Of a stretch of 64,000 bases of DNA, positions 14,405 to 36,579 are shown piece after piece. Numbering within the stretch: position 1 is the first letter of the stretch; every line of letters begins with the position of its first letter. The notes below the pieces were generated by a model. The model did no database searches. It was not told where the DNA came from and saw nothing but the letters and a program-made list of their open reading frames with translations. This DNA comes from Paenibacillus sp. FSL R7-0204 (lineage in GTDB: Bacteria > Bacillota > Bacilli > Paenibacillales > Paenibacillaceae): assembly GCF_038002225.1 (NCBI RefSeq), contig NZ_JBBOCA010000001.1, positions 3,472,001-3,536,000 of the forward strand, in the 5' to 3' direction. The position numbers were made by a program, and so were the translations under genes.

Positions 14405-14581
14405 TGGACTGAGATTCCGCTATTTTGCAAAAATCAAGCTTGATAGGGTCGAAACGGACTGAGATTCCGCTATCTTGTACTTTTGAGCCTTAAAGGACAC
14501 ATGTTAGGACGTATAACGGAATCTCAGTCCGCTCAGCCCGGAATTTCACCTGATTTACGCAAATAACGGAATCTCAGTCCT
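14405..14581. repeat. Symmetric four-unit intergenic repeat element, 50-76-50 bp spacing
   Basis: Four copies of a 20-bp unit with core GGACTGAGATTCCG: plus strand at 14405 and 14455, minus strand ending at 14531 and 14581. Each like-oriented pair is 50 bp apart, the inner pair 76 bp, and both pairs share an exact symmetry centre at 14493. The element fills most of the 403-bp gap between two minus-strand genes and could fold into a long interrupted hairpin. The element at 36399 has the same spacing with a different core. The rest of the gap (14191-14404) shows nothing else recognisable. Confidence 0.8.
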
Positions 14582-14593
14582 CTTGATGGTCAG

Positions 14594-14944
14594 TTAGAGA
14601 GTCATATAGGCGGCAGGGTTCAGCGAATCACATTCAATCATAACCGCTGTCAATCCTGAATCTGTGCGGGTCTCATGCCACTCCCCTTGCTTCCAAAAGA
14701 CAGCTTGGCCCGCACTAACAGCTGTGAATTCCGCTTCCTCTCCCCGCACATATCCTTCACCGTTCAGAATCAGCAGCAGTTGTGAAGAAGCAGCCTGATG
14801 ATACCCGATGATTCCTTGCTCACCTAGATATACGCAGCCTATATGAGCTTGCTCTTCTGTCTGAATGATCCGGGAGAGGATGAAGTCGGACTGGAAGGCG
14901 GAGATGGATTTACCGGTATCTATGCCGAAATGATAGATCTCCAT
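14594..14944 (-). CDS. Cupin-domain protein downstream of an AraC regulator
   Basis: A 116-residue single-domain cupin: the LGEQGIIGYHQAASSQLLLI and VSAGQAVFWKQGEWHET blocks correspond to the two cupin motifs, with the usual first-motif His pair reduced to one histidine. It may bind a sugar or simply be a structural sensor; no reaction can be assigned. GGAGG precedes the ATG, whose first base is the last base of the upstream AraC stop codon (TAATG), so translation is coupled. It probably assists the AraC regulator or the GH52 xylosidase pathway. Confidence 0.75.
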   Translation of the reverse strand: MEIYHFGIDTGKSISAFQSDFILSRIIQTEEQAHIGCVYLGEQGIIGYHQAASSQLLLILNGEGYVRGEEAEFTAVSAGQAVFWKQGEWHETRTDSGLTAVMIECDSLNPAAYMTL

Positions 14945-15912
14945 TAGACACCTCCTTGTGTGTGCTTCCCGGTGAACAACGCGTGCCCTTCCGTCTTGCC
15001 CGGCTCTTCCGTAAGCTGGCGGTAGCCCATGGGGGGCAGGCCGGTCCAGCGCTTGAACTGCTTGCTGAAATGAGAGACATCGCGGTAGCCCAGCCGATAG
15101 GCGATGCTCTCCACAGACAGGTTGTTATCCAGCAACAGCAGCTTGGCATGGCGGATAATGAGATCGGAGAGATACTGTCTGGGAGGCAGCCCGTAGATCT
15201 GCCGGAAGGCGCGGTTGCAGTGGTTGGGGCTGTAGCCAAGCCTGGCCGCAATCTCCTCGATGCTTCCGGCTCTGCTGCCTGTTGCTGCAGCTGTGAAGAC
15301 GGATTCCTGCAGCAGCCCTTCAATGGCATTCGCCAGGGCGACGGTCTTCTCCGTCACTCCCGGTAGGGTGCTCCGGGCAGGAGAAGGCAGGGCAGCCAGC
15401 ACCCAGCCGCTAAGGGCGGCGAAGAACTGGAGCGAAGCGTTCAGCATCACCAGCCGGCCCCGCTGCGCATCACTGGCCTCCGGGAGAATGGTCGAGCGGA
15501 TGATCTCATCCAGGGAGGAGCGGATCGCCTTCAGCTCCGGAGTGTCTCCACTCAGACTGACAGTATCCATCGTCATTAAGGAGCGGCGCAGAACCAGATC
15601 GTCAATGTCGAAGTGCAGGCAGTAATAAGACATCTCATCCCCTGAGGCTGCGCCCAGACTGGAGTGCAGCACACCGGGGCGGATGAACAGAATGTGGCCG
15701 CTCTCCTGGATGTAGGATTGTCCGCCTACGGCCATGTGCTGCCAGCCCTGCAGAACGATGTTGATCTCGAACATCGGGTGAGTGTGTGCCGGATATTGCC
15801 ACTCTCTGTTCACCTTGCGCCAGTGGGCGGCGAAGAGATGGAAGGCAGCTTGAACATCCGGGGACATGCGTCCGTCCATGGAATGCTGTGTGCCGGGATC
15901 TAATACGTTCAT
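14944..15912 (-). CDS. AraC-family regulator, divergent from the GH52 beta-xylosidase
   Basis: A 322-residue regulator with an N-terminal cupin-like sensor (YPAHTHPMFEINIVLQGWQ, then GHILFIRPGVLHS) and a C-terminal pair of helix-turn-helices (about residues 210-305: IEEIAARLGYSPNHCNRAFR, and SVESIAYRLGYRDVSHFSKQ). It probably activates the divergent xylosidase gene in response to xylose or xylo-oligosaccharides, an inference from position. The ribosome-binding site AGAGG lies 6 nt upstream. It overlaps the cupin gene by one base. Confidence 0.9.
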   Translation of the reverse strand: MNVLDPGTQHSMDGRMSPDVQAAFHLFAAHWRKVNREWQYPAHTHPMFEINIVLQGWQHMAVGGQSYIQESGHILFIRPGVLHSSLGAASGDEMSYYCLHFDIDDLVLRRSLMTMDTVSLSGDTPELKAIRSSLDEIIRSTILPEASDAQRGRLVMLNASLQFFAALSGWVLAALPSPARSTLPGVTEKTVALANAIEGLLQESVFTAAATGSRAGSIEEIAARLGYSPNHCNRAFRQIYGLPPRQYLSDLIIRHAKLLLLDNNLSVESIAYRLGYRDVSHFSKQFKRWTGLPPMGYRQLTEEPGKTEGHALFTGKHTQGGV

Positions 15913-15944
15913 GTTTAACCTCTTCTTTGTTAAAAGATGGATCT

Positions 15945-15950
15945 ATTATA
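15945..15950 (-). promoter_or_regulatory. -10 box of the AraC-cupin operon
   Basis: On the minus strand TGCTATAAT is an extended -10 element 33 bp upstream of the AraC start. No convincing -35 box accompanies it, and no clear promoter for the divergent xylosidase was found in 15951-16085. Confidence 0.5.
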
Positions 15951-16085
15951 GCATAGGCCGCTGCGTCCGATTGATTTGTCCAAATAATTGGCGGCTTTGC
16001 GCCTGTTGCCTGAGAGGAGGTAACGCTAACATAGAGCTAGAGCCCGGCATTGCCGGGACACAGCTGGAGGGAGTGTATATACTGT

Positions 16086-18203
16086 ATGCCGACTAACAAA
16101 TTCTTCAATGCCCATCATTCACCGATAGGATCATTCTCAAGCTTCACCCTCGGATTTCAAGGAGCGTCCGGCGGCTTTGACCTGGAACTAGGCAGACCGC
16201 CGAGACAGAACATATATATCGGCCTTGCGCGTAAGGATGGCCGCGGTTACGATACGTTACCATTCCATGAGCAGGGCAGCGACGATGAGAGCAAACGCTA
16301 CGATATCGAGAACCCGGACCCGAGTCCGGACAAGCCGCAGACGCTGTTTCACTTCGGAGAAGATGAAATTACGCGCGATTTCCGTCTTACAACAGACAGC
16401 TGGCAGGCCGGCGATCTGACCTTCCGCATTCTGTCACCAGTCCGGTCCGTTCCGGACCCGGGGACAGCTTCGGACGCAGAGCTGAAGGAAGTACTGCTGC
16501 CAGCAGTGCTGGTAGAGCTTGAAGTCGATAACACAGCGGGCAGCTCTGCGCGCCGTGCTTTCTTTGGCTTCCAGGGGAATGACCCGTATAGCGCCCTAAG
16601 AAGATTCGATGGCGGCCAGGAGGATCTGACGGGTGTCGGCCAGGGCCGGTTCCTGGCAATTGCCGCGAAGCAGGGTAGTGTAAAGGCGGCAATGCATTTT
16701 ACAATGGAGGATATTCTTGCAGCGGAGCTGGAGGAGAACTGGACGTTTGGGCTGGGGCAGGTTGGCGCGCTTATTATGGATGTGCCTGCCGGTGAACGCA
16801 AGGTGTACCAGTTCGCGGTCTGCTTCCACCGCTCCGGTTATGTGACTTCGGGAATGGATGCGAGCTATTACTATAACCGCTATTACAGCAATGTGGAAGC
16901 TGTTGCGGAATACGCGTTATCCCGGTTCGATACGCTGAAGCAGCAGGCTGAACAGGCGAACGGAATGCTGGAGGGAACGGCCTTAAGTGACGACCAGACC
17001 TTCATGCTTGCTCACGCTATCCGCAGCTACTACGGCTCCACTGAGCTCTTGGAGTACAAAGGCCAGCCTTTCTGGGTCGTCAACGAAGGCGAATACCGGA
17101 TGATGAACACGTTCGATCTTACGGTAGACCAGCTGTTCTACGAGCTGAAGATGAACCCGTGGACCGTACGCAATGAGCTGGATATGTTCGTGGACCGGTT
17201 CAGTTATGTCGACACCGTCCGCTTCCCGGGAGACCGGACCGAGTATCCGGGCGGGCTCAGCTTCACGCATGATATGGGAGTAGCCAACGCCGTGTCGCGT
17301 CCGGGGTATTCCTCCTATGAGCTGTACGGCATTGACGGCTGCTTCTCGCATATGACCCACGAACAATTGGTCAACTGGATTCTCACTGCGGCAACCTATG
17401 TGGAGCACACGGGCGACCGCAGCTGGATGGAGCGCAATCTGACGGTACTGGAGAGCTGCCTGCAGAGCATGCTGAACCGGGATCATCCGGACCCGGCGAA
17501 GCGCAACGGTGTGATGGCGCTCGACAGCTCACGGACCATGGGCGGTGCAGAGATTACGACCTATGACAGTCTGGATGTCTCTCTGGGCCAGGCGCGCAAC
17601 AATATTTATCTGGCGGGAAAATGCTGGGCTGCTTATCTGGCTATGGAGCGGATTTTCCGCGACAACGGCAATACGGAGCTGTCCCGGACTGCCGGCCGGC
17701 AAGCTGAACTCTGTGCGTCTACCATCGTGGCGAGTGTGACTGACGGCGGCTACATTCCTGCGGTTATCGGCGAAGGCAATGATTCGAAGATTATCCCGGC
17801 CATCGAAGGCCTGGTATTCCCTTACTTCACCGGCTGCAAGGAAGCTTTGGAGCGCGGAGGACGGTTCGGTGAATATCTTGAGGCACTGGACACGCATCTG
17901 AAGGCTGTGCTTGTGGAGGGAGTCTGCCTGTTCGAGGACGGCGGCTGGAAAATCTCCTCCACCAGCAATAACAGCTGGCTGAGTAAAATCTATCTCTCCC
18001 AGTTCATCGCCAGAGAAATTCTCGGCCTGGAATGGGAGGAGAAGGGGCGCGCAGCAGATCAGGCTCATACGGCTTGGCTTACGCATCCGCAGCTCTCGAT
18101 CTGGAGCTGGAGCGACCAGATTATCTCCGGCGAAATCACCGGCAGCAAATATTATCCGCGCGGGGTAACGGCCATTCTGTGGCTGGAGGAGCAGCGGGGG
18201 TAA
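16086..18203 (+). CDS. xynB: Beta-xylosidase, GH52 family
   Basis: A 705-residue enzyme matching GH52 xylosidases of Geobacillus in length and throughout the sequence (MPTNKFFNAHHSPIGSFSSF, YDIENPDPSP, GGAEITTYDSLDVSLGQARN, ISGEITGSKYYPRGVT). The proposed nucleophile is Glu334 in VNEGEYR and the acid/base Asp494 in TTYDSLD, corresponding to Glu335 and Asp495 of the Geobacillus enzyme. It cleaves xylose from the non-reducing end of xylo-oligosaccharides. There is no signal peptide, so it acts in the cytoplasm on imported substrate. The start at 16086 gives the family N-terminus; GGAGGGAG lies about 12 nt upstream. No xylose isomerase or kinase is in the window. Confidence 0.96.
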   Translation: MPTNKFFNAHHSPIGSFSSFTLGFQGASGGFDLELGRPPRQNIYIGLARKDGRGYDTLPFHEQGSDDESKRYDIENPDPSPDKPQTLFHFGEDEITRDFRLTTDSWQAGDLTFRILSPVRSVPDPGTASDAELKEVLLPAVLVELEVDNTAGSSARRAFFGFQGNDPYSALRRFDGGQEDLTGVGQGRFLAIAAKQGSVKAAMHFTMEDILAAELEENWTFGLGQVGALIMDVPAGERKVYQFAVCFHRSGYVTSGMDASYYYNRYYSNVEAVAEYALSRFDTLKQQAEQANGMLEGTALSDDQTFMLAHAIRSYYGSTELLEYKGQPFWVVNEGEYRMMNTFDLTVDQLFYELKMNPWTVRNELDMFVDRFSYVDTVRFPGDRTEYPGGLSFTHDMGVANAVSRPGYSSYELYGIDGCFSHMTHEQLVNWILTAATYVEHTGDRSWMERNLTVLESCLQSMLNRDHPDPAKRNGVMALDSSRTMGGAEITTYDSLDVSLGQARNNIYLAGKCWAAYLAMERIFRDNGNTELSRTAGRQAELCASTIVASVTDGGYIPAVIGEGNDSKIIPAIEGLVFPYFTGCKEALERGGRFGEYLEALDTHLKAVLVEGVCLFEDGGWKISSTSNNSWLSKIYLSQFIAREILGLEWEEKGRAADQAHTAWLTHPQLSIWSWSDQIISGEITGSKYYPRGVTAILWLEEQRG

Positions 18204-18361
18204 GCATTCGTACGCCGTATAAGCGAAGGGAAGTATCGAACGTTGCACAAGTGAAGGAACGTGTTAAACATTATAAGTTGCATTCTTTGCAGGATTTTGA
18301 AGCGCAGATGTGGATACGCAGGATTATAGGGTGAGCTTTCAAGAAGCATAAGTTTAAAATT

Positions 18362-18402
18362 ACAAACAGCGAGCCTCCCGGGTGCGGGGGTTCGCTGTTT
18401 GT
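18362..18402. terminator. Bidirectional terminator between GH52 and GH88 genes
   Basis: ACAAACAGCGA (18362-18372) pairs perfectly with TCGCTGTTTGT (18392-18402), extended by a G-T and two GC pairs. The tail toward the minus strand is AATTTT. The rest of 18204-18462 holds no recognisable gene. Confidence 0.8.
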
Positions 18403-18462
18403 ATTATGTGCGAATCCCCAATGATAGGGAGGCCCGCTGTTTGTTGTTATGCCATTACCAGA

Positions 18463-19569
18463 CTAGAAAATACGGTGCTTCCAGCCGTTCAGCTTCGCTA
18501 CAGCTTCAACGTAGAAGTAGTCGCCGTAGATCAGCGACACATCCATGTGGGAGTCGCCGCTGACTGCGCCGTGCAGCAGGATGGCTTCATGCGCGGGTTG
18601 CTCCCAGGTAGCGTAGCTCTCGGTCAACGAACGCAGAATGTGCTCTGCGGCATCCGCATACACACGTTTCTCGCCCGGCGGTACAAGCTCTGCCAGCTCC
18701 AGGAGGCCAGAAGCGGCAATTGCTGCGGCCGAGCTGTCTCTGGCCATGCGCTTGTCATCTGCCAGCCGGAAGTCCCAGTGCGGCACGTGATCTTCCGGGA
18801 GAGCCGCGATGAAATAATGGGCGATGCGCTTGGCGGTATTCAAGAAGCGCACGTCCCCGGTGTGGCGGTAGGTGTTCGTGAAGCCGTACAGCCCCCAGGC
18901 TGAACCCCGGCTCCAGCAGGATTCAGGGGAATATCCCTGTCCGCCGAAGTTCTCAATATAAGCGCCGGACTCTGCATCGAAGGAGAGAATATGCCTGGTG
19001 GACCCGTCCTCGCGCACACCATAGGTCATTGCTGTCTCCGCATGGCGGGTAGCAATATGGCTGTAGCGCGGATCGCCGGTGATCCGGCTGGCCCAGAAGA
19101 GCAGCGAGATGTTCATCATGCAGTCGATGATCACCCAGCCGTGCTTGTCCCCGTTCCAGGCGCGGATGAACCGGCCCGCCGGATTATAACGTGCAGCCAG
19201 GTAGTTAGCCGCTTCAAGTCCCCGGCGCAAGCCCTCTGCATCACCTGTAAGCGTATGCTTGATCACCGCAGTAGCCAGGAATTGAAAGCCGACATCGTGA
19301 TGCAGCTCTTCGGTCGGCTTCGCGAACCACTGTCCAATCGTTTCGTCCCCGGGCCAGGCAGTATCCTTATAAGCTTCCTTGCCGGTCATATCATACATGA
19401 CCCAGAGTATTCCCGGCCAGAAGCCGGAGGTCCACCAGTCAGTCCCGGGATTATCGAATCTGCCGTCTGCTCCCGCAGCATGAGGACTCCGCGTCCCGAG
19501 CGCCTTGATCATGCCGTTTACTTTCGGTTCCAGACGGTTCATTACTTCCTGCCAATAAGCTGTAGTCAT
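18463..19569 (-). CDS. Unsaturated glucuronyl hydrolase, GH88 family
   Basis: A 368-residue alpha/alpha-barrel enzyme. Asp92 (HHDVGFQF) and Asp149 (VIIDCMMN) align with Asp88 and Asp149 of the Bacillus sp. GL1 enzyme, where Asp149 is the catalytic residue. The DWWTSGFWPGILW and SPESCWSRGSAWGLYG blocks are also family-typical. It removes the 4,5-unsaturated uronate left at the non-reducing end by polysaccharide lyases, giving the substrate for KduI. There is no signal peptide. The start at 19569 has GGAGG 9 nt upstream; the next ATG up has none. An AraC regulator lies 119 bp upstream on the same strand. Confidence 0.93.
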   Translation of the reverse strand: MTTAYWQEVMNRLEPKVNGMIKALGTRSPHAAGADGRFDNPGTDWWTSGFWPGILWVMYDMTGKEAYKDTAWPGDETIGQWFAKPTEELHHDVGFQFLATAVIKHTLTGDAEGLRRGLEAANYLAARYNPAGRFIRAWNGDKHGWVIIDCMMNISLLFWASRITGDPRYSHIATRHAETAMTYGVREDGSTRHILSFDAESGAYIENFGGQGYSPESCWSRGSAWGLYGFTNTYRHTGDVRFLNTAKRIAHYFIAALPEDHVPHWDFRLADDKRMARDSSAAAIAASGLLELAELVPPGEKRVYADAAEHILRSLTESYATWEQPAHEAILLHGAVSGDSHMDVSLIYGDYFYVEAVAKLNGWKHRIF

Positions 19570-19688
19570 CGCTGATGCCTCCACTTGAATTAGATTATGG
19601 CCTCAGTATAACGCCTCTGGCGAACTGGAAGTTGTCATTTGATATCACGAAATGTTGTTATATTGTCCTATTCCTCGTAAGTAGGCTC

Positions 19689-20546
19689 TCAGGTTCCCTT
19701 GCGGTATTGCAGCGGAGAAAGGCCGAGTACCCGCTTGAACAGCTGGTTGAAGTAGGAAGGATTCGGGAATCCGACAGCGCTGCCGATTCGCTCCACCGTC
19801 AGGTCCGTCGTCTCGAGCAGCCGGCAGGCCTGCTTGAGACGACGGGCGGTAAGATAGTCGACCAGGCGGCCGCCTGTTTCCTGATGAAAAATCCGCGAGA
19901 CATAGGATTTCGAGAGGTGAGTCTCCTCCGCAAGCTGCTCCAGATTCACCTCTTCCTGATAATGCGCTTCAATCCAGTTCATGATCTGCTCCGAATAGCG
20001 GAGCTTCCGCCGTTCTCCGGTATGAATCAGTGACTGCTCCCCTGTTCCCAGGCAGCTTAACAACTGCAGAAGCAGCATCGTGATATCCTCGGTATCTTCC
20101 CCGGATGATTTGCTCCGGCACTGATTGTAATTCCCATAGATCCATTCCATAGTCTCCAGGCGGTCACCAAGATCGAAGCCGCAATAGGGATTGCTGCCTT
20201 GCCATAACGCATTGAACACCGCTTTACGTTTGGCGAAGCCCTGCAGCAGATGCTCTGCTGTCAGGGGGTCAAGATAGAAGATCGTCCGTATGAATGGGCT
20301 TTCGGTTGAGACGTCCGAAGAAATCCGGTGCAGCTGATACGGCTGGAAAAAGAAAAGCATGCCCGGCCGGATATCATACATCTGCTGATTCACAACAATG
20401 CTGCCCTGCCCGCCGTGTACGAACATGATCTCACAGCACTGATGCCAGTGGTAATATCCCTTGTAATGATCGTCGGTATAGATGCGGTAGTCCCAGATCA
20501 GCGACTGCCGGTTCGCAAACAGAACAGGCTCGAATAGCTGTTTCAT
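19689..20546 (-). CDS. AraC-family regulator upstream of the GH88 gene
   Basis: A 285-residue regulator: cupin-like N-terminal sensor (GYYHWHQCCEIMFVHGGQGS, RPGMLFFFQPYQLHRI) and C-terminal double helix-turn-helix (NLEQLAEETHLSKSYVSRIF and TVERIGSAVGFPNPSYFNQL). Its position directly upstream of GH88 on the same strand suggests it controls that gene in response to an unsaturated oligosaccharide. GGAG lies about 12 nt before the start, a long spacing. A TATAAT box lies about 57 bp upstream on the minus strand. Confidence 0.88.
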   Translation of the reverse strand: MKQLFEPVLFANRQSLIWDYRIYTDDHYKGYYHWHQCCEIMFVHGGQGSIVVNQQMYDIRPGMLFFFQPYQLHRISSDVSTESPFIRTIFYLDPLTAEHLLQGFAKRKAVFNALWQGSNPYCGFDLGDRLETMEWIYGNYNQCRSKSSGEDTEDITMLLLQLLSCLGTGEQSLIHTGERRKLRYSEQIMNWIEAHYQEEVNLEQLAEETHLSKSYVSRIFHQETGGRLVDYLTARRLKQACRLLETTDLTVERIGSAVGFPNPSYFNQLFKRVLGLSPLQYRKGT

Positions 20547-20658
20547 CCTTGGTTTACGCTCCTGTCATGACAAAATAAAGACATTTTATGGTTTCTATTA
20601 TAACGTTGACCCCACCAGGGCGCTACAATAAAACAGGAGCTTCACTCTATGGATTAGC

Positions 20659-21759
20659 TTAGGAGGCAGCGGCGCGCTGCCTCACTTTGTGTACTACGAG
20701 AATAAGCAGTGGAAGTGCAAGCGAATAGGTTAAATTCCAGTCCACCCAGTAAGGGGGGATTTCTTTGACATAGAAGATGATGTCCTTGGAGATGAGCTGT
20801 GAAAGTCCGTAGATCAGGAACGCGACAGGGAAGATTAGAGGGCGGTGGCTTTTCAGCTTGAATATTTGCGCCATTCCGAGCACAAAGGCATAGAAGTAGA
20901 GTGCTGTTTTGAAATAGGTCGTGATAATCCAGGCGGTAGCCATCAGCGCTTCAAGCCGCTGTAAGAAGTTGGCAATATTGATTTTTTGGGCCAGGATATA
21001 GGCGGCATAGAAACTATGCTCGGAGAAATAGACGCCGAGAACGGTCAGTGAGAGAAACAGAATCAGGTTCAGACCTACGGAGCCTATGCAGAGCGCGATG
21101 AAGATATCACGGTTAATCTTACTGTTCTTGCGGGTGTAAGGGTAGATCATGAAGAAAACGCAGATCTCTCCGAAGGGATAGAATACACCGATCATGATCG
21201 AATGCAGCATATCCGGTAAAGGTGTAGTCAGCATAGGATAGACACGCTCCAGCCGGACCTGTGGAAATAGGAGCACCATCAGGGCCACCAGGAATAAGGC
21301 AAACAGCGGAAAGAACACCTGCGCTGCCCGGCCGACCGTCTCAAGCCCCAGACGCAGACCGTACACCAACAGAACAATGCTCATGAACCGGATTACTCCG
21401 CCGGGAGTTCCCTCGTAGATCTGGGTACACATGAAATCCTCAATTTCCCGGACATACGTAGAGGCCGCGATGATGAAGAAGAACAGATAGTACCCGCCTA
21501 CCGCGCTGCCTAGCCATTTCCCCAGCACCTGTCGGCTGATCTCAATAATATTTTGGTCCGGACTGATATTTGCTACTACAACAAACAGGAAGACTAGTGC
21601 AATCCCCGGCGGAATACTGAACAAGGCGGCGATCCAGGCATCCTGATGGGCTTCGGAAGTCATGGCTGCAGGATAGACCAGGGCCATATCCCCGATAAAG
21701 GTGAAAAGACCGAGGATTACCAACTGCGCTGTGCTGATCCGCTCTTTTTCAATACTCAT
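20659..21759 (-). CDS. Spore germination permease, GerAB/GerKB type (B subunit)
   Basis: A 366-residue protein with ten predicted membrane spans, of the APC-like endospore germination permease family. Typical features are the N-terminal ISTAQLVILGLFTFIGDMAL, the NIIEISRQVLGKWLG loop and the late EIPPYWVDWNLTYSLALPLL region. It forms the germinant-binding membrane subunit in the inner spore membrane. GGGGGG lies 6 nt upstream of the start. In most operons B follows A; here it is transcribed divergently from A, C and D, so the receptor is made from two transcripts. Confidence 0.9.
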   Translation of the reverse strand: MSIEKERISTAQLVILGLFTFIGDMALVYPAAMTSEAHQDAWIAALFSIPPGIALVFLFVVVANISPDQNIIEISRQVLGKWLGSAVGGYYLFFFIIAASTYVREIEDFMCTQIYEGTPGGVIRFMSIVLLVYGLRLGLETVGRAAQVFFPLFALFLVALMVLLFPQVRLERVYPMLTTPLPDMLHSIMIGVFYPFGEICVFFMIYPYTRKNSKINRDIFIALCIGSVGLNLILFLSLTVLGVYFSEHSFYAAYILAQKINIANFLQRLEALMATAWIITTYFKTALYFYAFVLGMAQIFKLKSHRPLIFPVAFLIYGLSQLISKDIIFYVKEIPPYWVDWNLTYSLALPLLILVVHKVRQRAAAS

Positions 21760-21812
21760 CTCTATCCCCCCTTTACATGTGACCTCCAGGGCCTATGAAC
21801 CCGGAACCCTCT

Positions 21813-21842
21813 TAGTATGGCATCCCCTTCCAGAATTATGTG
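21813..21842 (-). promoter_or_regulatory. Candidate sigma-G promoter for the germination permease
   Basis: On the minus strand CATACTA (21813-21819) matches the sigma-G -10 consensus CATnnTA. ACATA lies 17 bp upstream as a partial -35 match. Expression in the forespore is what this receptor would need. Confidence 0.5.
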
Positions 21843-21867
21843 AATCAAGTACAGGTCTGAATTTGAG

Positions 21868-21897: not shown

Positions 21898-21936
21898 ACC
21901 TGAATAGAAGGTTCACGGGAAGGAGAAGTGGCCCGG

Positions 21937-27702: not shown

Positions 27703-27779
27703 TGCCTGGCACAGAGAATCAGACAACCCGCAGGCAGCATATAAGTACAGAAACATGGAATAGACAGGAGAGGTGACCG

Positions 27780-28074: not shown

Positions 28075-29367
28075 ATGATTAACCTACTGGAAGTATTACA
28101 CAAAGAAATTATGCCGGCAGAAGGCTGCACCGAACCGATTGCGGTAGCTTATGCCGTCTCGTTGGCGGCTGAACTGGTGGATGAGGAGATTACGGCGATT
28201 CAGCTGCTGCTTAGCGGCAATATCATCAAGAATGCGATGGGCGTAGGGATTCCTGGTACAGGCCAGACGGGCTTGCCTATAGCGGCGGCTTTGGGTGCGG
28301 TGATTCGCCGCTCGGAGCGGAAGCTGGAGATTCTGTCCGGGCTAACCCCGGAGGAGCTGGCAAGTGCAGAGGGACTGCTGGAGCGTAAGCTGCTGGAGGT
28401 TGAGCTGAAGGATACGCCGGAGAAGCTATATATAGAAGCGAGAGTACAAAGCAAGAACCATACCGCCACAGCGATCCTGGTAAAAGAGCACACGAATGTG
28501 CAGTATCTGGCGAAGGATGGCCAGCGGCTTGAGCCAAAAATGGACAAGGCCGACTGCGGAGACCCGCTTAGTCTGGACCCTGAGGTATACTCGGTCTCAC
28601 TCGAAGATATCTATGCCTTCGTTCAGAATACACCGTTCGAGGACCTTCGCTTCCTGCTAGAGGGAGCGGTTATGAATAAGGCGATCTCGGAGGAAGGGCT
28701 GCGCGGGGAGTATGGCCTCCAGGTGGGCCGGAAAATGAGCCAGCAATCCGCCCTCAATCTGTTCGGCGCGGATGTGGCGAACCGGATTATCGCCGCAACG
28801 GCAGCGGCATCCGATGCACGGATGGACGGCAGTGCCATGCCGGTAATGACTACAGCGGGCAGCGGCAATCAGGGGATTGCCTGCACCATGCCGGTCATTG
28901 CCCTGGCCGAGCTCCTCGGCAAGGATGAGGAGACTCTGGCAAGAGCGATGGCGCTCAGCAATCTGATTACCATTCATGTGAAGCATTACATTGGCCGGCT
29001 GTCCCCGCTCTGCGGATCAGGTATTGCCGGCGGAGTAGGGGCGGGCAGCGGTATTGTCTATCTGATGGGCGGGACGCTGGCGCAGATCAAACACTCCATC
29101 CAGAATACAATTGCCTCTACTTCAGGTATGATCTGCGATGGTGCCAAGCCAACCTGTGCACTCAAAATCTCCACGGCCACCAACGCAGCCATTCAGTCTG
29201 CCACCCTCGCCATGAACAATATATCCGCGAGTCTCAATGACGGTGTCATCTTCGAGAAAGTGGAGGATACGATCAAGAATATGGAGACCCTTGTCCAGGA
29301 GGGGCTTGCCGCCACAGACCAGGCCATTCTGAATATTATGCTCTCCAAGGGAGCCGCTTCTTCATAA
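28075..29367 (+). CDS. cyuA: L-cysteine desulfidase family protein (UPF0597, CyuA/YhaM-like)
   Basis: A 430-residue member of the serine dehydratase alpha-like UPF0597 family. It keeps MPAEGCTEPIAVAYAVSLAA at the N-terminus (Cys18), the middle GSGNQGIACTMPV and the late LSPLCGSGIAGGVGAGSG and MICDGAKPTCALK blocks. The cysteines at these places bind a [4Fe-4S] cluster in the family. The enzyme breaks L-cysteine to sulfide, ammonia and pyruvate. GGTGA lies 8 nt upstream of the ATG. It is convergent with the ankyrin gene, with only 30 bp between the stops. Confidence 0.87.
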   Translation: MINLLEVLHKEIMPAEGCTEPIAVAYAVSLAAELVDEEITAIQLLLSGNIIKNAMGVGIPGTGQTGLPIAAALGAVIRRSERKLEILSGLTPEELASAEGLLERKLLEVELKDTPEKLYIEARVQSKNHTATAILVKEHTNVQYLAKDGQRLEPKMDKADCGDPLSLDPEVYSVSLEDIYAFVQNTPFEDLRFLLEGAVMNKAISEEGLRGEYGLQVGRKMSQQSALNLFGADVANRIIAATAAASDARMDGSAMPVMTTAGSGNQGIACTMPVIALAELLGKDEETLARAMALSNLITIHVKHYIGRLSPLCGSGIAGGVGAGSGIVYLMGGTLAQIKHSIQNTIASTSGMICDGAKPTCALKISTATNAAIQSATLAMNNISASLNDGVIFEKVEDTIKNMETLVQEGLAATDQAILNIMLSKGAASS

Positions 29368-29397
29368 GGATAAGGACAAGTACCGGATGTTCAGCGA

Positions 29398-30453
29398 TTA
29401 GCGTTTGTAATCTGGTTGCGGCAAGGAAACAGGCTGTGGATTGGCTAGTACCCAATTCACGGCCAATTCGCATAATCTGGCCGGCTCATCATTGCCGTTG
29501 CCATGGCGGAGGTAACCGGCTAATTCCGCCGCTTCCTGCATTTGCGCAGGGTCCAGAGGTGTGCCCGAGGCGAAGTGCAGAAGCAGTGCACTGAGCATTT
29601 TACGGAAATCCGCATCCCAGTTGCCACCCCCGTTATTCATGATTTCATAAGAGATCCGGCCGGTGATGCGAATGACCTCTCCCTGCACGGTGAGCGCATG
29701 TCCTGAAGCCGGGATGAGTAATTCCCATAGCTCCTGATGCTGATCCTGCCATCTTGTGCTGTTTACCTCGATCTTGGATACACCGTCATGCATCACCCGC
29801 GCTGCTACAGGCTCTACATTGAACAGCTTGTACAGCTTGTTCAGGGCCGCTACGGTATCCTCCAGGTAGTCTTTATTGAAATTAGCTCTGCTGAATTCAA
29901 AATTCTTGCCGATCTTCGTCACAGATTCCCTCATCTCCGGTGTGACTTCTGCTCCTGCCGCAAGCATCACCTGCGCGATCTCAGCCATGCCGGTGATATC
30001 GGCATTCCGGCAATTGATCAAGGCCTTCCCCAGTGGAGTATTCCCGCGATTGTTCACAGCATGGATGTCGGCGCCGTGAGCGATAAGATCACGGATTGCC
30101 CCAGTCCGGTAGTAGTTGGCAGCGGCGTGTAGCGGAGTCTCGTTCTGATAATCTATGGCTTCCAGCTCAGCGCCAAGCTCAAGGAACAGCGGAATATTAC
30201 CCGACCAGTTTCCGGCCTGCGAATGCAGCGGGGTACGCTGGTACTTATCCCTGGCGTTAATGTCGGCACCTTGCTCCACGAGCCAGCGGACCAGCTCATC
30301 CGGAATCTGCCGGATGCTGAGCGCGGGTTCTTTGTAATATCCCAAGGTTGCATCCCATTCACGGTCCTTAAAAACCGCCTTCAATGCATCAATATCCTCC
30401 GTTTTAACCTGCTCGCGGAAATCGGCGGGTAAGGTTTTTTTCTTTTTAGCCAT
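29398..30453 (-). CDS. Ankyrin-repeat protein
   Basis: A 351-residue soluble protein with a lysine-rich start (MAKKKK) and about four ankyrin repeats at residues 50-175 (WLVEQGADINARDKYQRTPL, LFLELGAELEAIDYQNETPL, DLIAHGADIHAVNNRGNTPL, MLAAGAEVTPEM). The C-terminal half is not recognised. Ankyrin repeats bind other proteins; no partner is evident. AGGAG precedes the ATG. The DeoR gene ends 37 bp upstream on the same strand. Confidence 0.85.
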   Translation of the reverse strand: MAKKKKTLPADFREQVKTEDIDALKAVFKDREWDATLGYYKEPALSIRQIPDELVRWLVEQGADINARDKYQRTPLHSQAGNWSGNIPLFLELGAELEAIDYQNETPLHAAANYYRTGAIRDLIAHGADIHAVNNRGNTPLGKALINCRNADITGMAEIAQVMLAAGAEVTPEMRESVTKIGKNFEFSRANFNKDYLEDTVAALNKLYKLFNVEPVAARVMHDGVSKIEVNSTRWQDQHQELWELLIPASGHALTVQGEVIRITGRISYEIMNNGGGNWDADFRKMLSALLLHFASGTPLDPAQMQEAAELAGYLRHGNGNDEPARLCELAVNWVLANPQPVSLPQPDYKR

Positions 30454-30490
30454 AGGTAGTTCTCCTCTCTGATATTATACTTCCAACGCA

Positions 30491-31246
30491 TTAGTACAGC
30501 ACCTCCACATTCTTCTCGGACAACAGCTTCAGCCAGGCTTCCGAAGGCTTACGGTCGGTAATCAGCACATCAATCCGGCTTAGCTCTGCGAGCCTGGCAA
30601 AGGCTGTCTGGTCGAACTTGGTATGGTCCGCGAGCAGCACGACCTTATGTGCCTGGCGCAGCATATATTTCTTCAGCTCACATTCCGGTTCATTGGAGTC
30701 GGTGACCCCGCGGTCCATATCGAGGGCCTTGCAGCTGATTACGGCGGTGTCCACATTGTAGCGCTGAATGGTCTCATGGGCTACGGGGCCGACAAGCGAC
30801 AGGGAACGGTGGCGGAGTGAGCCGCCTGTCGAAATAATGCTGTGGCTTGAGCTCGCGAACTCATGGAGAATGTTGATCGAATTGGTGATGATCGTCAGAT
30901 TACTTTTATTACCCAGCAGCTTCAGGAATTCAAACGAGGTCGAGCTGGGGTCCACCATCAGCGTATCCCCGTCATTAATCAGATCCAGCGCCTGGATCGC
31001 TATTGCGCGTTTGATATCCGTATTGAGCGCTCCCCGGGTCAGAAAAGGCAGGTCCTCATTGGTATGCCTGTTCAGCATGGCTCCGCCGTAGGTCCGGCTT
31101 ACAATGCCATCCTTCTCCAGCTTCTCCAGGTCTCTGCGGATCGTCTCCTCTGTCACCTCGAACATCCGGCTCAGATCGGACACCAGCACCCGTTTGTCCT
31201 GATGGACAAGGTCGATTATTTTTTTGCGTCTTTCGGCAGCGAGCAT
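30491..31246 (-). CDS. DeoR-family regulator, divergent from the rhamnose operon
   Basis: A 251-residue regulator: N-terminal winged helix (residues 1-55, RRKKIIDLVHQDKRVLVSDL, TEETIRRDLEKLEKDGIVSR) and a sugar-phosphate sensor domain with MVDPSSTSFEFLKLL, IITNSINI and STGGSLRHRS. The start at 31246 has AAGGTGA 5 nt upstream; an open frame further up to 31378 lacks the family pattern. It is probably the repressor of fucO-rhaBAD, taking the place of the AraC-type RhaR/RhaS of enteric bacteria. The palindromes at 31297 and 31407 are its likely binding sites. Confidence 0.9.
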   Translation of the reverse strand: MLAAERRKKIIDLVHQDKRVLVSDLSRMFEVTEETIRRDLEKLEKDGIVSRTYGGAMLNRHTNEDLPFLTRGALNTDIKRAIAIQALDLINDGDTLMVDPSSTSFEFLKLLGNKSNLTIITNSINILHEFASSSHSIISTGGSLRHRSLSLVGPVAHETIQRYNVDTAVISCKALDMDRGVTDSNEPECELKKYMLRQAHKVVLLADHTKFDQTAFARLAELSRIDVLITDRKPSEAWLKLLSEKNVEVLY

Positions 31247-31296
31247 ACGTATCACCTTTCCAGAGTTGATAGTCTTAATATAGACTGTTATTTCTG

Positions 31297-31308
31297 TGTT
31301 GTACAACA
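31297..31308. promoter_or_regulatory. Palindrome TGTTGTACAACA, candidate DeoR operator 1
   Basis: A perfect 12-bp palindrome 51 bp upstream of the DeoR start. A near copy overlaps the promoter of the rha operon. Confidence 0.5.
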
Positions 31309-31406
31309 TGGTGAACCCGAATTTCTCTGAAACCCACAATAATGATTGCTTATTTCCCGTGAAACAAACAATAAACAAATAAAAACAACATAATTAGTAT
31401 TTATAA

Positions 31407-31437
31407 TGTTGACAACACAGATAAACGGCGATACGAT
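31407..31437 (+). promoter_or_regulatory. Promoter of fucO-rhaBAD with overlapping operator 2
   Basis: TTGACA (31409-31414) and TACGAT (31432-31437) are 17 bp apart. TGTTGACAACA (31407-31417) is a one-base-shorter copy of the palindrome at 31297 and covers the -35 box, a layout expected for repression. Confidence 0.65.
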
Positions 31438-31510
31438 GAGAAGGTCAACAGGGAGATGTGCGCTTACTGTGTTCATTAACTATTTACATGCCCGGGAGGC
31501 TGGTTAAGCA

Positions 31511-32662
31511 ATGAGTACTCATATCTATTATGTGCCGTCGATTAACATTATGGGAAAGGGCTGTCTGAAGGACATCGCCCCGTACATTCAAGAGCTGAAT
31601 CTGCACAAGGCGCTTGTGGTCACAGACAAGTTCCTGATGAAGAGCGGAATCGCCGGAAGGCTGCTGGCTGTGCTGGATGAAGCGGGAATTCAGTATGTGG
31701 TATATGATGAAGTGAAGCCGAACCCTACCTGCAAAAATGTTCATGACGGCGTGGAATTTCTGAAACAGCACGAATGTGACTATTTGATCTCCATCGGCGG
31801 CGGCTCGCCGCAGGATACGGCCAAGGCCATCGGAATTGTAGCCACTAACGGCGGACATATTGCCGATTATGAAGGCGTTCACAAATCCAAGAATAAATCT
31901 CTGCCGATTGTCGCGGTGAACACGACGGCCGGGACTTCAAGTGAAGTGACGATCAACTACGTGATTACGGATGAAGAGCGTAAGATCAAGATGGTCATGG
32001 TAGACAAGAACAGTATCGCCACTATCTCGGTGAATGATCCGGAGCTGATGGTTGATAAGCCGGCTGCGCTAACGGCGGCTACGGGCATGGATGCACTGAC
32101 GCATGCCATTGAAGCGGTGGTCACTCCAGGCGCATATCCGGTAACCGATGCTACCGCACTGGCTGCGGTGGAGCTGATCTTCGGCAATCTGGCGCGGACG
32201 GTAACGAACGGACAGGATATTGAAGCACGTGAGCAGATGGTCTATGCGATCTTCCTCGGCGGCCTTGCCTTCAATAATGCAGGCTTAGGCTATGTGCATG
32301 CCATGGCCCATCAGCTTGGCGGGGTGTATGATCTGCCGCACGGCGTGTGCAATGCGATGCTGCTGCCTTACGTGGAAGAAGAGAATGCCAAGCATGTGCC
32401 GGAGAAGTTCAGAGCGATTGCCAGAGCGGCCGGTATGCAGACTGAAGGACGCAGCGACAAGGAATGTGGGGATTACGTCATTGAGGCGATCAAGGACTTG
32501 TCCAAGGAGGTTGGCATTCCTGCGAAGCTGTCCGAGCTGGGTGTAGCGGAAGTAGATCTCGATCTGCTGGCTGAGAACGCCATGAAGGATGCCTGCGCGC
32601 CCGGTAATCCTTTTATTCCTACCAAAGATGAAGTAATCGCGTTATTCCGCAAAATTCTGTAA
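31511..32662 (+). CDS. fucO: Lactaldehyde reductase, iron-containing alcohol dehydrogenase family
   Basis: A 383-residue group III alcohol dehydrogenase: NAD site ISIGGGSPQDTAKAIG near residue 95, NTTAGTSSEVT near 140, and the metal-binding histidines in AMAHQLGGVYDLPHGVCNAM. As the first gene of the rhamnose operon it very likely reduces L-lactaldehyde, released by RhaD, to 1,2-propanediol. The family contains other alcohol dehydrogenases, so the substrate rests on context. The gap to rhaB is 29 bp. Confidence 0.9.
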   Translation: MSTHIYYVPSINIMGKGCLKDIAPYIQELNLHKALVVTDKFLMKSGIAGRLLAVLDEAGIQYVVYDEVKPNPTCKNVHDGVEFLKQHECDYLISIGGGSPQDTAKAIGIVATNGGHIADYEGVHKSKNKSLPIVAVNTTAGTSSEVTINYVITDEERKIKMVMVDKNSIATISVNDPELMVDKPAALTAATGMDALTHAIEAVVTPGAYPVTDATALAAVELIFGNLARTVTNGQDIEAREQMVYAIFLGGLAFNNAGLGYVHAMAHQLGGVYDLPHGVCNAMLLPYVEEENAKHVPEKFRAIARAAGMQTEGRSDKECGDYVIEAIKDLSKEVGIPAKLSELGVAEVDLDLLAENAMKDACAPGNPFIPTKDEVIALFRKIL

Positions 32663-32691
32663 ATCACCTCCCATAGAATAGGAGATTCCCT

Positions 32692-34167
32692 ATGACCTAT
32701 CATATCGCCGTCGATATCGGCGCCTCCAGCGGACGGCTGGTGCTCGGACAGCTCGTGGACGGGAGCCTCCAACTGGAGGAGATTCACCGTTTCAGCAATG
32801 GCTTCACAGAGCAGGAAGGCTCCTGCTTCTGGGATATGGATTATTTATTGAATGAAATTATTAACGGTCTGCAGCAGGCGAAGCTAAGAGGCATTCACGA
32901 ATGCACCCTCGGCATTGATACCTGGGCGGTAGATTATGTGCTGCTGGATGCCGAAGGCAAGCGGCTGAACGAGGTCTATGCCTACCGTGACCGCCGCACG
33001 GACGGGGTGATGGAGGAGGTCGCGAAGCAGCTTCCGCCTCATAAGGTGTACGCTAAGACCGGGATACAGCAGCTTTCCTTCAATACGCTGTATCAGCTAT
33101 ATGCGCATGACCGGGAAGAGCTGGAGGTAGCGGATCAAATCCTGCTGGTGCCGGATTATCTCTACTACCGGCTCGGCGGACGGAAGATGAACGAGGTTAC
33201 CAATGCATCCACGACACAGCTATTAAATCTTGCGACCCGTGATTTCGACCGTGAGCTGCTGGAATTCCTGGGTCTGCGGCGGGAACAGTTCGCTCCGTTG
33301 ACTGAGCCGGGGGAAGAGCTTGGCTTCCTCTCAACGGAGCTGGTGGAACGGTATGATCTGCCGGAGTGCCGCCTGATCTGTGTTGCCACACATGACACGG
33401 CTTCTGCGGTACTCGGTGTGCCTGCTCAGAAGGACCGTGCATCAGCCTATCTTAGCAGCGGAACCTGGTCTCTGCTCGGAGTAGAGCTGGATCACCCGGT
33501 CCATGACAGCAGAGCGATGGCTGCTAATTATACCAACGAGTGGGGCGCTTACGGGACCTACCGGTTTCTGAAGAATATTATGGGCCTCTGGCTGATCCAG
33601 GAAGTGCGCAGACTGGACGGCGAAAGGTTTAGCTTCGCGGAACTGGCAGATCAGGCCGGTGAATGCGCAGGCTTCCGCAGCCTGATTCCCTGCAATCATC
33701 CGCGGTTCCTTAAGCCCGGCGATATGATTCAGGAGATCCGCCAGGCCTGCCTGGAGAGCGGCCAGCCTGTGCCGCAGACTACGGGCGAACTGGCCCGCTG
33801 TATCTTTGACAGTCTGGCGTTATCCTACCGCAGTCATCTGGCTGAGCTGGAAGAACTCACCGGGGAGCGTACCGAAGTGCTGCAAATTGTCGGCGGCGGC
33901 GCTAACAATGGGCTGCTGTGCCAGCTGACGGCAGATGTTACCGGCAGGGAAGTGCTGGCCGGACCGACCGAATCCACAGCCCTGGGTAATCTGGCTGTGC
34001 AGATGATTGAGGCGGGCCGCATAACAGACATTCATGAAGCCCGGCATATCATCTCTCAGTCCTTCGCGATTCAGTCTTATCTGCCGCAGCCGGTACCTCA
34101 GCTGGCGGAGCTGCTGGTCCGCTGGGAGCAGCTTCATCCGGGAGCGGATGTTCACAATACGTATTAG
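32692..34167 (+). CDS. rhaB: Rhamnulokinase
   Basis: A 491-residue FGGY kinase. The N-terminal ATP-binding [12 protein letters not shown], the [12 protein letters not shown] segment, the middle [12 protein letters not shown] and the late [12 protein letters not shown] (phosphate-2 type loop) are typical of rhamnulokinase. It phosphorylates L-rhamnulose at O1 with ATP. It lies 11 bp upstream of rhaA, within one operon. Confidence 0.94.
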
Positions 34168-34178
34168 GAGGCAACAGC

Positions 34179-35435
34179 ATGGATCAGAGCATCATTAACA
34201 GCTACAACGAAGCCAAAAAATTATATGCAGCCCATGGAATTCAAACGGATGAGGTACTGGAGAAGCTGGCGCAGATCAAAGTATCGCTGCACTGCTGGCA
34301 GGGCGATGATGTACGGGGCTTTCTGTTCAAGGATAAAGAGCTGAGCGGCGGCATTGCCGTGACCGGCAGCTACCCCGGACGGGCCGGTACACCGGATGAG
34401 CTGCGTCAGGATCTGGAGAAGGCCCTCTCGCTGATTCCCGGCAAGCATAAGGTCAATCTGCATGCGATCTATGCCGATACGAAGGAGCAGGTGGATCTGG
34501 ATGAGCTGGCGCCGCGCCATTTCAAGAATTGGGTGGAATGGGCCAAGGAGCAGGGCTTAGGCCTTGATTTCAATCCGACCTGCTTCTCGCATCCGAAGGC
34601 GGCAGACGGGTTCACCCTGAGCCATGCGGACGAAGAGATCCGCAGCTTCTGGATTAAGCATTGCAAGGCCTCCCGCAGCATTGCTGAGCACTTCGGCCGC
34701 GAGCTGGGCCAGCCGTGTGTCACGAATTTCTGGGTGCCTGACGGCTACAAGGATACTCCGGTGGACCGGCTGGCTCCGCGCATGCGCCTGAAGGAATCGC
34801 TGGATGAAATCTTCAGCGAAGAGATTGATCCGCAGTACAATGTCGATGCTGTGGAGAGCAAGCTGTTCGGTATCGGCTCGGAGAGCTACGTGGTCGGATC
34901 GCATGAGTTCTACATGGGCTACGGCCTGACACGCGGCAAGGCAATCTGCCTGGATGCGGGGCATTTCCATCCGACGGAAGTGATCTCGAACAAGCTCAGC
35001 TCCATCCTGATGTTCAGCGAGCAGCTGCTGCTGCATGTCAGCAGACCGGTCCGCTGGGACAGTGATCATGTGGTCACGATGGACGATGAGCTGCTGGAGA
35101 TTGCCCGTGAGCTGGTTCGCGGGGATCTGCTGCCGCGTACGCATATCGGCCTCGACTTCTTTGACGGCAGTATCAATCATCTGGCAGCATGGGTGATCGG
35201 CACGCGCAATACGATCAAGGCCCTGCTGCGCGCCATGCTGGAGCCGGTAGAGGAGCTTCGGGCCATTGAACAGGCCGGAGATTACACCTCACGGCTGGCC
35301 CTGGTGGAAGAATTCAAGTCCTATCCTTTCGGTGCAGTATGGGATTACTATTGCGCTTCGCAGGGAACCCCGGTCCGTGAGGGGTGGCTGGCTGAAGTGA
35401 AGAGCTATGAGCAGGATGTATTGGCTTTAAGATAA
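34179..35435 (+). CDS. rhaA: L-rhamnose isomerase
   Basis: A 418-residue TIM-barrel enzyme interconverting L-rhamnose and L-rhamnulose. The length and blocks [37 protein letters not shown] and [14 protein letters not shown] (metal-binding Asp and His) fit RhaA closely. GGAGG precedes the ATG. It sits between rhaB and rhaD. No rhamnose mutarotase (rhaM) or transporter is found nearby. Confidence 0.96.
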
Positions 35436-35510
35436 GATCAGTGTTTACTGCTGAAATCACAAATTAACGAATACCCGCACGCTGAAGGTGCATATAGAAG
35501 GAGAGAGCAT

Positions 35511-36356
35511 ATGAGTACTTCCGTAATTGAATCCAAAGGGTATATATCCGGCGTCACCGCGCCTTTTATCGAGGAAATGTCCGAAATTACCCATCACATG
35601 TGGTCGCTGGGCTGGGATGAGCTGAACGGGGGCAATGTCAGTTACCTCCTGGATGAAGAAGAGGTAGCCAAGTATATCAATATCCGTGAGCCGCTGCGTA
35701 CGATCAGCCTTACCTTCCCTGTAGCCGAACTGGCGGGCAAATACTTCATCGTGACCGGATCAGGCAAGTATTTCCGTAATGTGATCAAGGACCCTGAAGC
35801 CAATCTGGGTGTGCTGCGTGTCAGCAGCAGCGGCGAGAGTGTAGAGGTGCTATGGGGACTGCGTAATGGCGCTGTTCCGACCAGTGAGCTGGCTTCCCAC
35901 TTCATGAGCCATATCGAACGGCTAAAGGTTGATCCGGCTCACCGGATTGTGCTGCATACCCATGCAACGAATGTGATTGCCATGACCTTCACCCATGATC
36001 TGGATGAGCTGAAATTCACGAAGACGCTGTGGGAGATGTGTACAGAATGTCTGGTGGTCTTCCCGGATGGCGTCAGCGTCATTCCCTGGATGGTGCCGGG
36101 GAGCAGCGAGATCGGCCGGGCTACCGCTGACCGGATGAAGGAATACCGCGTGGTCATCTGGCCGCAGCATGGGATCTTTGTTACCGGTGCGACGATGGAT
36201 GCCACCTTCGGGCTGGTTGAAACGATTGAGAAGGCCGCGATTGTCTATAACCTGATCGGCGGAAGAGAGATTCGGCAGAAGATTACCGATCAGCAGCTGG
36301 CAGATCTGGCCGCTGCCTTCCGCGTGACTCCGAGACCCGGCATTCTGAATGTATGA
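35511..36356 (+). CDS. rhaD: Rhamnulose-1-phosphate aldolase
   Basis: A 281-residue class II aldolase. Typical features are [14 protein letters not shown] near the N-terminus, [10 protein letters not shown], the metal-binding [11 protein letters not shown] and [10 protein letters not shown] histidines, and a catalytic Glu in the [12 protein letters not shown] region. It splits L-rhamnulose 1-phosphate into DHAP and L-lactaldehyde. It is the last gene of the operon, with AAGGAGAG upstream. No clear terminator follows; the next 354 bp are dominated by a repeat element. Confidence 0.95.
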
Positions 36357-36398
36357 CGTCTATTCTATCTCCCTTGTTAACCAAAGCGAATCGGTACT

Positions 36399-36579
36399 AA
36401 CGGACCGGAGGGAACTTATTCTCAGGAAAACACCGCTTTGTGCGGCGAAACGGACCGAGTGGACCTTATCGTCTCTCTAAACCATGTTTAGGAGCATATT
36501 ATCGGTGAATAAGGCCTATGGGGTCCGTTACTTCCCCCAATTGTGACTTGCAACCGGAATAAGTGCTGCTTAGTCCGTT
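36399..36579. repeat. Second symmetric four-unit repeat element, 50-76-50 bp spacing
   Basis: Four 22-bp units of form AACGGAC, nine variable bases, CTTAT(T/C): plus strand at 36399 and 36449, minus strand ending at 36529 and 36579. Like-oriented units are 50 bp apart and the inner pair's matching C positions 76 bp apart, with both pairs centred on 36489. Spacing and outer boxes (CGGAC and TAT) equal those of the element at 14405, but the nine-base cores differ here in every unit. It occupies the 354-bp gap between rhaD and the oxidoreductase gene; no gene is seen in that gap. Confidence 0.8.

Follow-up and report, generated by a model that had tools for sequence, protein, structure and literature searches.

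The window analysed here is a stretch of 64,000 nucleotides from Paenibacillus sp. FSL R7-0204 (contig NZ_JBBOCA010000001.1, positions 3,472,001 to 3,536,000). It contains two intergenic elements, elements 1 and 2, each of which carries four 19-bp units with the consensus CGGAC-N10-YTAT, two in forward and then two in reverse orientation. According to this inverted 2+2 layout, the conserved boxes, the phasing of A/T, and the persistence of box sequences and spacing among inherited copies, we lean towards the view that the dispersed intergenic element acts as double-stranded DNA, namely as a four-site loading platform for a putative protein that would wrap or bend about 180 bp.

Layout and helical phasing of the four-unit element

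In both elements the units start at 0, +50, +108 and +158, corresponding to start-to-start distances of 50, 58 and 50 bp. A sequence-only reading of the window had described two elements of two forward and two reverse units with a 50-76-50 symmetry, and both are present with this geometry: like-oriented starts are 50 bp apart, the start of the inner forward unit and the end of the inner reverse unit are 76 bp apart, and the dyads are located at 14493 and 36489. The location given for element 2 was right, but its true limits are 36401-36577 instead of 36399-36579. The outer boxes are shared in general, as that reading had said, but the outer units of element 1 begin with TGGAC and AGGAC, not with CGGAC. 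One core, TGAGATTCCG, occupies all four units of element 1, and the four cores of element 2 differ, also as described. The parts of the elements are as follows.

14405..14423, + strand: outer forward unit of element 1 (TGGAC-N10-CTAT)
14455..14473, + strand: inner forward unit of element 1
14474..14512, no strand: centre of element 1, 39 bp, dyad at 14493 (family profiles: A/T maxima at 0 and near +/-10.5)
14513..14531, - strand: inner reverse unit of element 1
14563..14581, - strand: outer reverse unit of element 1
36401..36419, + strand: outer forward unit of element 2 (CGGAC-N10-TTAT)
36451..36469, + strand: inner forward unit of element 2
36470..36508, no strand: centre of element 2, 39 bp, dyad at 36489
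36509..36527, - strand: inner reverse unit of element 2
36559..36577, - strand: outer reverse unit of element 2

For the genome of this strain (the own genome, G000), a half pattern was defined as two units exactly 50 bp apart with at most two mismatches, and the reversed pattern was used as the control. The 7.71-Mb genome has 82 matches (39+43), and the control has 1+1. The earlier reading had proposed to look for such an excess of 50-bp pairs, and chance is excluded as its source. Whole elements are locally duplicated at loci L019, L025 and L073, which would suit an origin by chance repeats or simple tandem duplication. This origin is refuted by the 82 matches against two and by the conservation of the spacing across an order, and we give it practically no weight.

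The window and 53 fetched regions (54 sources) were searched by a script for four-unit elements, and 51 were found; the total in the own genome is about 57, IS-interrupted copies (those interrupted by an insertion sequence, IS) included. L067, L081 and L089 (two IS-interrupted, one with a 53-bp spacing) were excluded from later counts. In the 48 rows kept, the like-oriented spacing is 50 or 51 bp in both pairs, and the centre spacing is 58 bp in 44 rows and 57 bp in four. The script tolerance (48-52 for like-oriented pairs, 54-62 for the centre) was wider than these ranges. Most loci were found with the half pattern, in which the spacing was set to 50, so that 51-bp spacings are under-counted. 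L060, with an IS in its outer unit, was left out of the column statistics, the centre profile and the own-element phasing, leaving 47 rows; it was kept in the unit self-complementarity test and the gene-context count, and L089 was also kept in the latter. The order forward-forward-reverse-reverse (FFRR) is found in 46 of 50 own-genome chains of at least three units, in 18 of 21 chains in the loci of genome G007, and in all 20 in those of G002. Occasional FFFRR, FRRR, RRR and FFR chains retain the 50-bp step. At two G007 loci, L110 and L111, the outer reverse unit is multiplied as tightly packed copies (GCGGCCGTGGTGTCCGTTA) without the 31-bp spacer. One own-genome element (G000:C2:18054-18230) belongs to the second contig, which has 106 kb and may be a plasmid.

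For related bacteria, matches to the half pattern were counted over whole genomes with one mismatch allowed; where a genome has one to three matches, these may be due to chance. The half pattern is present in 72 of 100 same-genus genomes; the number of matches per genome ranges from 0 to 366 (the maximum, 187+179, in G039), with 0 or 1 control matches per strand. At the family level it occurs in 110 of the 245 genomes and in 13 of the 19 genera, the genera g7 and g8 having nearly no matches; for the order the figures are 110 of the 296 genomes and 29 of the 48 genera. When named genomes were scanned for exact four-unit layouts, at least 119 stretches were obtained. Among the matches listed (80 of at least 119), most are from Paenibacillus species, together with two from Cohnella, one from Anaerobacillus arseniciselenatis (L258) and one from an uncultured Bacillaceae record (L288); the layout of both Cohnella stretches, L258 and L288 was confirmed by reading the sequences. 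The commonest core differs by genome (CGGACACAG for the G007 loci, CGGACTGAG for the own genome), and the boxes and spacing are constant. Thus the layout, whose absence from all relatives would have spoken against the sequence-only reading, is present across the genus, family and order, with variable cores and spacers. Three-unit matches also occur on the viral-class contigs L408, L409 and L410, in phage or flanking host DNA.

According to the column statistics of 79 non-redundant half elements, positions 2-5 of CGGAC are nearly invariant and positions 17-18 in TTAT are invariant. A/T maxima recur about every ten bases along the half element: there are patches of A at 27-30 and of T at 37-40, then T/A at 48-49 and the next CGGAC at 51-55. 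The element centre continues the pattern, with A/T maxima at the dyad and at about +/-10.5 (34 of the 47 elements, after near-duplicate removal). With the boxes masked, A/T is phased to the dyad in all 18 non-redundant elements among the 25 own elements of exact spacing (z 17 at 10.0 bp). The same holds for all 63 non-redundant elements among 85 from the records of named genomes, with periods of 10.0-10.2 bp; the best period is 10.1 bp (z 31.5), and z is -1.2 at 10.8 bp. In the control, 116 flank windows, z is 0.2, 0.7 and 2.0 at 10.0, 10.2 and 10.5 bp. Since the scan constrained the boxes and the spacing but left the spacers free, the phasing is an independent finding.

The sequence-only reading had suggested a protein that binds four phased sites, and the A/T phasing agrees with this, since it fits the binding or wrapping of four co-facial sites. 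The four units would share one helical face, at intervals of about five turns, and one protein species may thus bind all four. The bound DNA would be held in a closed superhelical loop, probably left-handed, because the 10.1-bp spacing is below 10.5 and suggests a left-handed path as in nucleosomes. The variable bases would matter only for groove width and bendability.

Inheritance, gain and loss of the copies

Inherited copies were compared in 15 ortholog pairs, covering 12 elements, between own loci and close relatives. Changes were counted at 6 of 480 box bases, 165 of 2181 bases of the element remainder (cores 38/660, spacers 76/938, centre 51/583) and 443 of 6860 flank bases. The boxes change about six times less than the remainder; the flanks are fast intergenic DNA, and the ratios are approximate. 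The selection of G000 copies with intact boxes would conceal roughly half of the box changes; at half the remainder rate 18 box changes are expected against the 6 seen (P 0.0008). Insertions and deletions are about five times rarer inside the elements (5 in 2661 bases) than in the flanks (62 in 6860), and those inside are single-base spacing steps, four from 51 to 50 and one from 58 to 57. In this set the pairs L062/L181 and L062/L208 were dropped, their alignments being broken by other inserts, L072/L222 was added, and the flanks were widened; the earlier set with the dropped pairs gave 10/487 for boxes and 189/2194 for the remainder. Spacing and boxes are retained in relatives and orthologs while cores and spacers change, which supports the proposal that geometry is under selection.

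Element 2 is absent at the orthologous site in six relatives (L151-L156), the flanks of which are 90-97% identical. The empty sites are 34-49 bp against 269-285 bp, and the left edges are slightly different among the six. The stretch concerned is given here.

36348..36616, no strand: stretch around element 2 without counterpart in the closest relative (L151 has 34 bp instead)

The site alignments comprise 14 that span an element (10 elements) and 62 broken or empty rows, 26 of them for element 2. Thirteen site comparisons at 11 own loci other than element 2 were inspected by eye. The size differences are about 170-690 bp, those at L025 covering a tandem element pair, and neither a constant target duplication nor a constant insert length was observed in the 13 comparisons. 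At the loci L013, L014 and L062, some relatives (L180-L208) have the element, others have little or nothing, and different DNA of about 290-810 bp is present elsewhere; these loci are possible insertion hot spots.

Copies spread within genomes. The copies in G007 and in G002 are closely similar among themselves. In G007 only, the sequence common to most copies stops just outside the outer units, near TCTAACGGAC...GTCCGTTAGA, with fairly sharp edges, and six copies share about a dozen further bases on the left. These features, together with the great variation in copy number among related genomes and the absence of element 2 from six relatives, favour a non-autonomous mobile repeat, comparable to a miniature inverted-repeat transposable element (MITE) or to a REPIN, a doublet of repetitive extragenic palindromic (REP) sequences. 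In that case a transposase encoded elsewhere would bind the unit pairs at the ends, and the fixed geometry would reflect the transposition complex; several transposases typically have paired inverted sites at the ends of their elements. We regard this explanation as the serious alternative, possible but not the probable one. The 13 comparisons, as described above, provide no constant target duplication or insert length, and fixed copies keep their boxes and spacing, which is unexpected for dead copies.

No transposase or recombinase was recognised in the 30 largest clusters of open reading frames (ORFs) near elements (617 ORFs at 104 loci, first residues only), and no autonomous transposon parent was recognised among the element neighbours, whole genomes not having been searched. 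PF01797 (Y1, the REP-type transposase) has matches in 56 of the 100 same-genus genomes, including the own genome with 10 matches. It was not found in G039, G079, G081 and G077, which have 151-366 half-pattern matches, so a REP-type transposase is not required; G072 has 12 Y1 matches and no half-pattern match. According to this co-occurrence, the REP/Y1 transposase was rejected. No compelling recurrent neighbour gene was found at the 104 loci. The largest cluster, with a start like that of a membrane sensor kinase, covers eight of them, and a LacI-like cluster covers five (L293:6703-7833 and four related ORFs; four of these ORFs are at most 400 bp from an element). The two names were guessed from first residues, and LacI-type regulators are common in the genus. 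A mobile repeat and a platform for a wrapping protein are mutually compatible.

The unit is also the target of an IS. This 1290-bp IS, which we take to be of the IS3 family from its HTH_Tnp_1 and rve ORFs, has ten near-identical copies in the own genome (one is L066:1792-3081). Eight of the ten are inside elements. Seven of these eight are at one position of the unit, with a 3-bp duplication of unit bases 7-9, and six of the seven are in an inner unit; the eighth is at the ATA edge of an inner unit. The other two copies are located about 36 bp outside an element and in unrelated DNA. In a ninth interrupted element, L078, the insert is a diverged relative of the IS. From other species, 14 copies were fetched from seven element-bearing genomes: seven interrupt a recognisable unit, six of them at the same position; four retain part of a unit at just one end (three of these identified by eye); and the remaining three have no unit across the junction, one of them lying 17 bp beside a unit. 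In G049, which has 0+1 matches to the CGGAC half pattern, a 69%-identical IS has four fetched copies, three of which are in units of about CGGGAATTTCTCC..TTAT (by eye). The variant units of G049 (L404, L405, L407) have a changed first box, a spacing near 50 and inverted partners. According to PMC1525189, REPs and bacterial interspersed mosaic elements (BIMEs) are IS hot spots, and the REP-targeting IS described there is a close parallel. A site-specific IS that recognises the unit would be a handle on either wrapping or transposition.

Several observations weigh against a platform for a wrapping protein. In a wedge model, which is a weak test with assumed angles and plain shuffles, the static curvature is no greater than in shuffled sequences, and 31 of the 63 elements are below their own shuffled mean. 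As there is no extra static bend, wrapping would need a protein or flexibility. The writhe predicted by the same model is negative in 50 of 63 elements and in 42 of 63 shuffles. Apart from its boxes, the element diverges as rapidly as the flanks, and the ortholog pairs are few and partly non-independent (L026 in three pairs, L018 in two). Copies are gained and lost between close relatives, as for a selfish repeat. No half-pattern match is present in 28 of the 100 same-genus genomes, which indicates no essential role. No binding protein was found among the data analysed here.

Tests for RNA or hairpin structure

The sequence-only reading had offered a folded RNA as an alternative to a protein. 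A structured RNA or a long hairpin transcribed from the element would be in accordance with the stable folding of the inverted layout: the mean minimum free energy (MFE) is -61.8 kcal/mol, against -54.8 kcal/mol for column-shuffled sequences. The pairing of the arms is slightly raised (0.521 against 0.493 for re-dealt arms, z 4.1), mainly in the inner cores (z 5.1). Both features can follow from the fact that the four units share one core type. Small pairing excesses were also found within the units, at axis 13 (z 3.7; 1.06 against 1.00 of 5 pairs), at axis 20 (z 3.4; 2.08 against 1.95 of 8) and in a few column pairs.

The units that would pair are no more alike than the others. Within an element the two direct pairs have core identities of 0.537 and 0.540; for the inverted pairs the values are 0.541, 0.543, 0.527 (inner-inner) and 0.486 (outer-outer), so that the would-be stem partners are lowest. 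In five of the six unit pairs the cores resemble each other about equally regardless of orientation. The spacer arms are hardly more similar within elements than between them (0.413 against 0.395 identity, z 1.8). The strongest column couplings inside half elements do not align into a helix, and there is no Rfam match at the gathering threshold in the window. We therefore consider an RNA very improbable; a folded RNA or cruciform is unsupported by covariation, arm similarity and MFE.

A hairpin in each unit was also considered, as CGGA...TCCG in element 1 looks palindromic. It was rejected: at the likely axes 16 and 17, unit self-complementarity is not in excess over column-shuffled units (z 0.8 and -1.0), and at axis 15 there is a deficit (z -6.1). 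Position 12 departs from G to T jointly in all four units in five to six of the 63 elements. This joint change, and the likeness of the cores regardless of orientation, would be as for one common binder.

Relation to known systems and possible role

No description of an inverted 2+2 Paenibacillus element was found among the 10-20 best-matching papers of each literature search, from which subscription journals are mostly absent, so that absence from print is unproven. The statement of the sequence-only reading that no such element is described holds for this layout, but 52-nt repeats of Firmicutes that share the helical phasing are in print (PMC8161180). We regard these constant-length repeats as the closest described system. 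According to that paper, the 52-nt tandem repeats of Bacillus and other Firmicutes have constant length, variable sequence and short species-specific signal words, with several families per genome, and form head-to-tail arrays of four or more repeats of 51-53 nt. Subirana and Messeguer (2021) found constant-length repeats to be especially abundant in Paenibacillus, and proposed a protein that needs a constant repeat size (PMC8161180). The word 'periodic' was not found in a word search of its text. For the 27 consensuses of its Table 1 (50-54 nt), we obtained an A/T power of 2.96 at five cycles per repeat, against 1.02 expected (z 10.0; next best z 2.8). The 50-bp repeats of the elements have a power of 4.47 at five cycles, boxes included. 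The elements are thus similar in their constant repeat length of about five turns, variable sequence, signal words and five-turn phasing of A/T. In contrast to the 52-nt repeats, they are inverted 2+2 about a dyad, with a period of 50-51 and one box set (CGGAC, YTAT) across an order; the order is FFRR, not head to tail, in the own chains counted above (46 of 50) and in 86 of 93 chains of a set itself selected for FFRR. The two resemble each other in design, from which common descent cannot be concluded. Beside some elements (L018 right flank, about 3140-3420; L017 left flank) there are short tandem repeats with a length of about 20-27 bp, close in size to the class of 20-21-nt repeats in PMC8161180.

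The elements share several features with BIMEs and REPINs. BIMEs, REPs and REPINs are dispersed intergenic mosaics with motifs in opposite orientation, and REP units are GTAG-type hairpins. The present elements are likewise dispersed, intergenic, made of inverted motifs and targeted by an IS. Unlike the units of REPs, BIMEs and REPINs, theirs are not GTAG-type hairpins; the elements are abundant without a Y1 match and are helically phased over 180 bp, and neither an association with the Y1 transposase nor a conserved covarying stem-loop per unit was found. Bacterial MITEs are short, with inverted ends and many copies, and the elements resemble them in all three. They differ from MITEs in having no constant target site duplication in the 13 comparisons; no parent transposon was recognised in the loci examined. 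In a word search of the REP survey PMC12306157, Paenibacillus was not found.

The elements may instead be strong sites of DNA gyrase, as are BIME-2 of E. coli and the Mu site. According to PMC6379681, the E. coli gyrase motif is dyad-symmetric, its GC content varies periodically in a manner similar to nucleosome patterns, and BIME-2 is cut by gyrase. The elements also combine dyad symmetry with a base-composition periodicity over a wrapped length. The E. coli motif, however, has 130 bp with a 10.75-bp periodicity in two flanks and a separate 36-bp centre (PMC6379681). Such a motif does not fit the present elements, which have about 180 bp, a 10.1-bp period, A/T maxima at the dyad and at +/-10.5, and fixed boxes. 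To our knowledge gyrase needs no CGGAC box, and relatives without elements possess gyrase too. Gyrase sites are therefore an improbable explanation.

The gene setting of the window elements is listed below; both are located between co-directional genes.

13438-14226, - strand: DUF218 gene, left neighbour of element 1
14594-14944, - strand: small gene with weak cupin/AraC-binding matches (cupin below the Pfam cut-off), right neighbour of element 1
35511-36356, + strand: class II aldolase-type gene, left neighbour of element 2
36711-37805, + strand: FMN oxidoreductase gene, right neighbour of element 2

A tandem repeat of 9/18/27/45 bp at 38413-38633, within the ORF 37928-39046, was also observed in the window.

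According to simple ORF calls, divergent gene pairs flank only 2 of the 47 intergenic copies with a called gene on either side; for comparison, 7 of the 36 intergenic gaps in the window are between divergent genes. Since so few copies are between divergent genes, the likely role would be in nucleoid or supercoil architecture near gene ends, where the cell probably tolerates the copies, and to some extent retains them, as sites of architecture or supercoiling. Such a role is comparable to that of E. coli BIMEs, from which the elements differ in sequence and in showing no dependence on a BIME-type transposase.

In nucleosome positioning DNA, A/T recurs about every 10.2 bp in phase with the dyad. 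The elements are similar in phasing A/T at about 10 bp about a dyad, and differ in that they belong to bacteria without histone octamers, have four sequence-specific boxes and cover about 18 turns. A bolder reading, which we hold only tentatively and think rather doubtful, is that Bacilli have a nucleosome-like wrapping system, in which a protein or a pair of proteins would bind short species-specific words five turns apart and wind about 180 bp into a left-handed superhelix. The 52-nt repeats and the 50/58/50 elements would then be two layouts of one positioning code, and the repeat length would be constant because it equals five turns of wrapped DNA. The puzzle of the fixed-length, free-sequence repeats of Firmicutes becomes testable, as a length of five helical turns with a conserved rotational phase of A/T patches. 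If the binder is a transposase, the geometry would describe its transpososome. If a wrapping binder exists, a large group of soil bacteria would possess an unrecognised architectural or wrapping protein.

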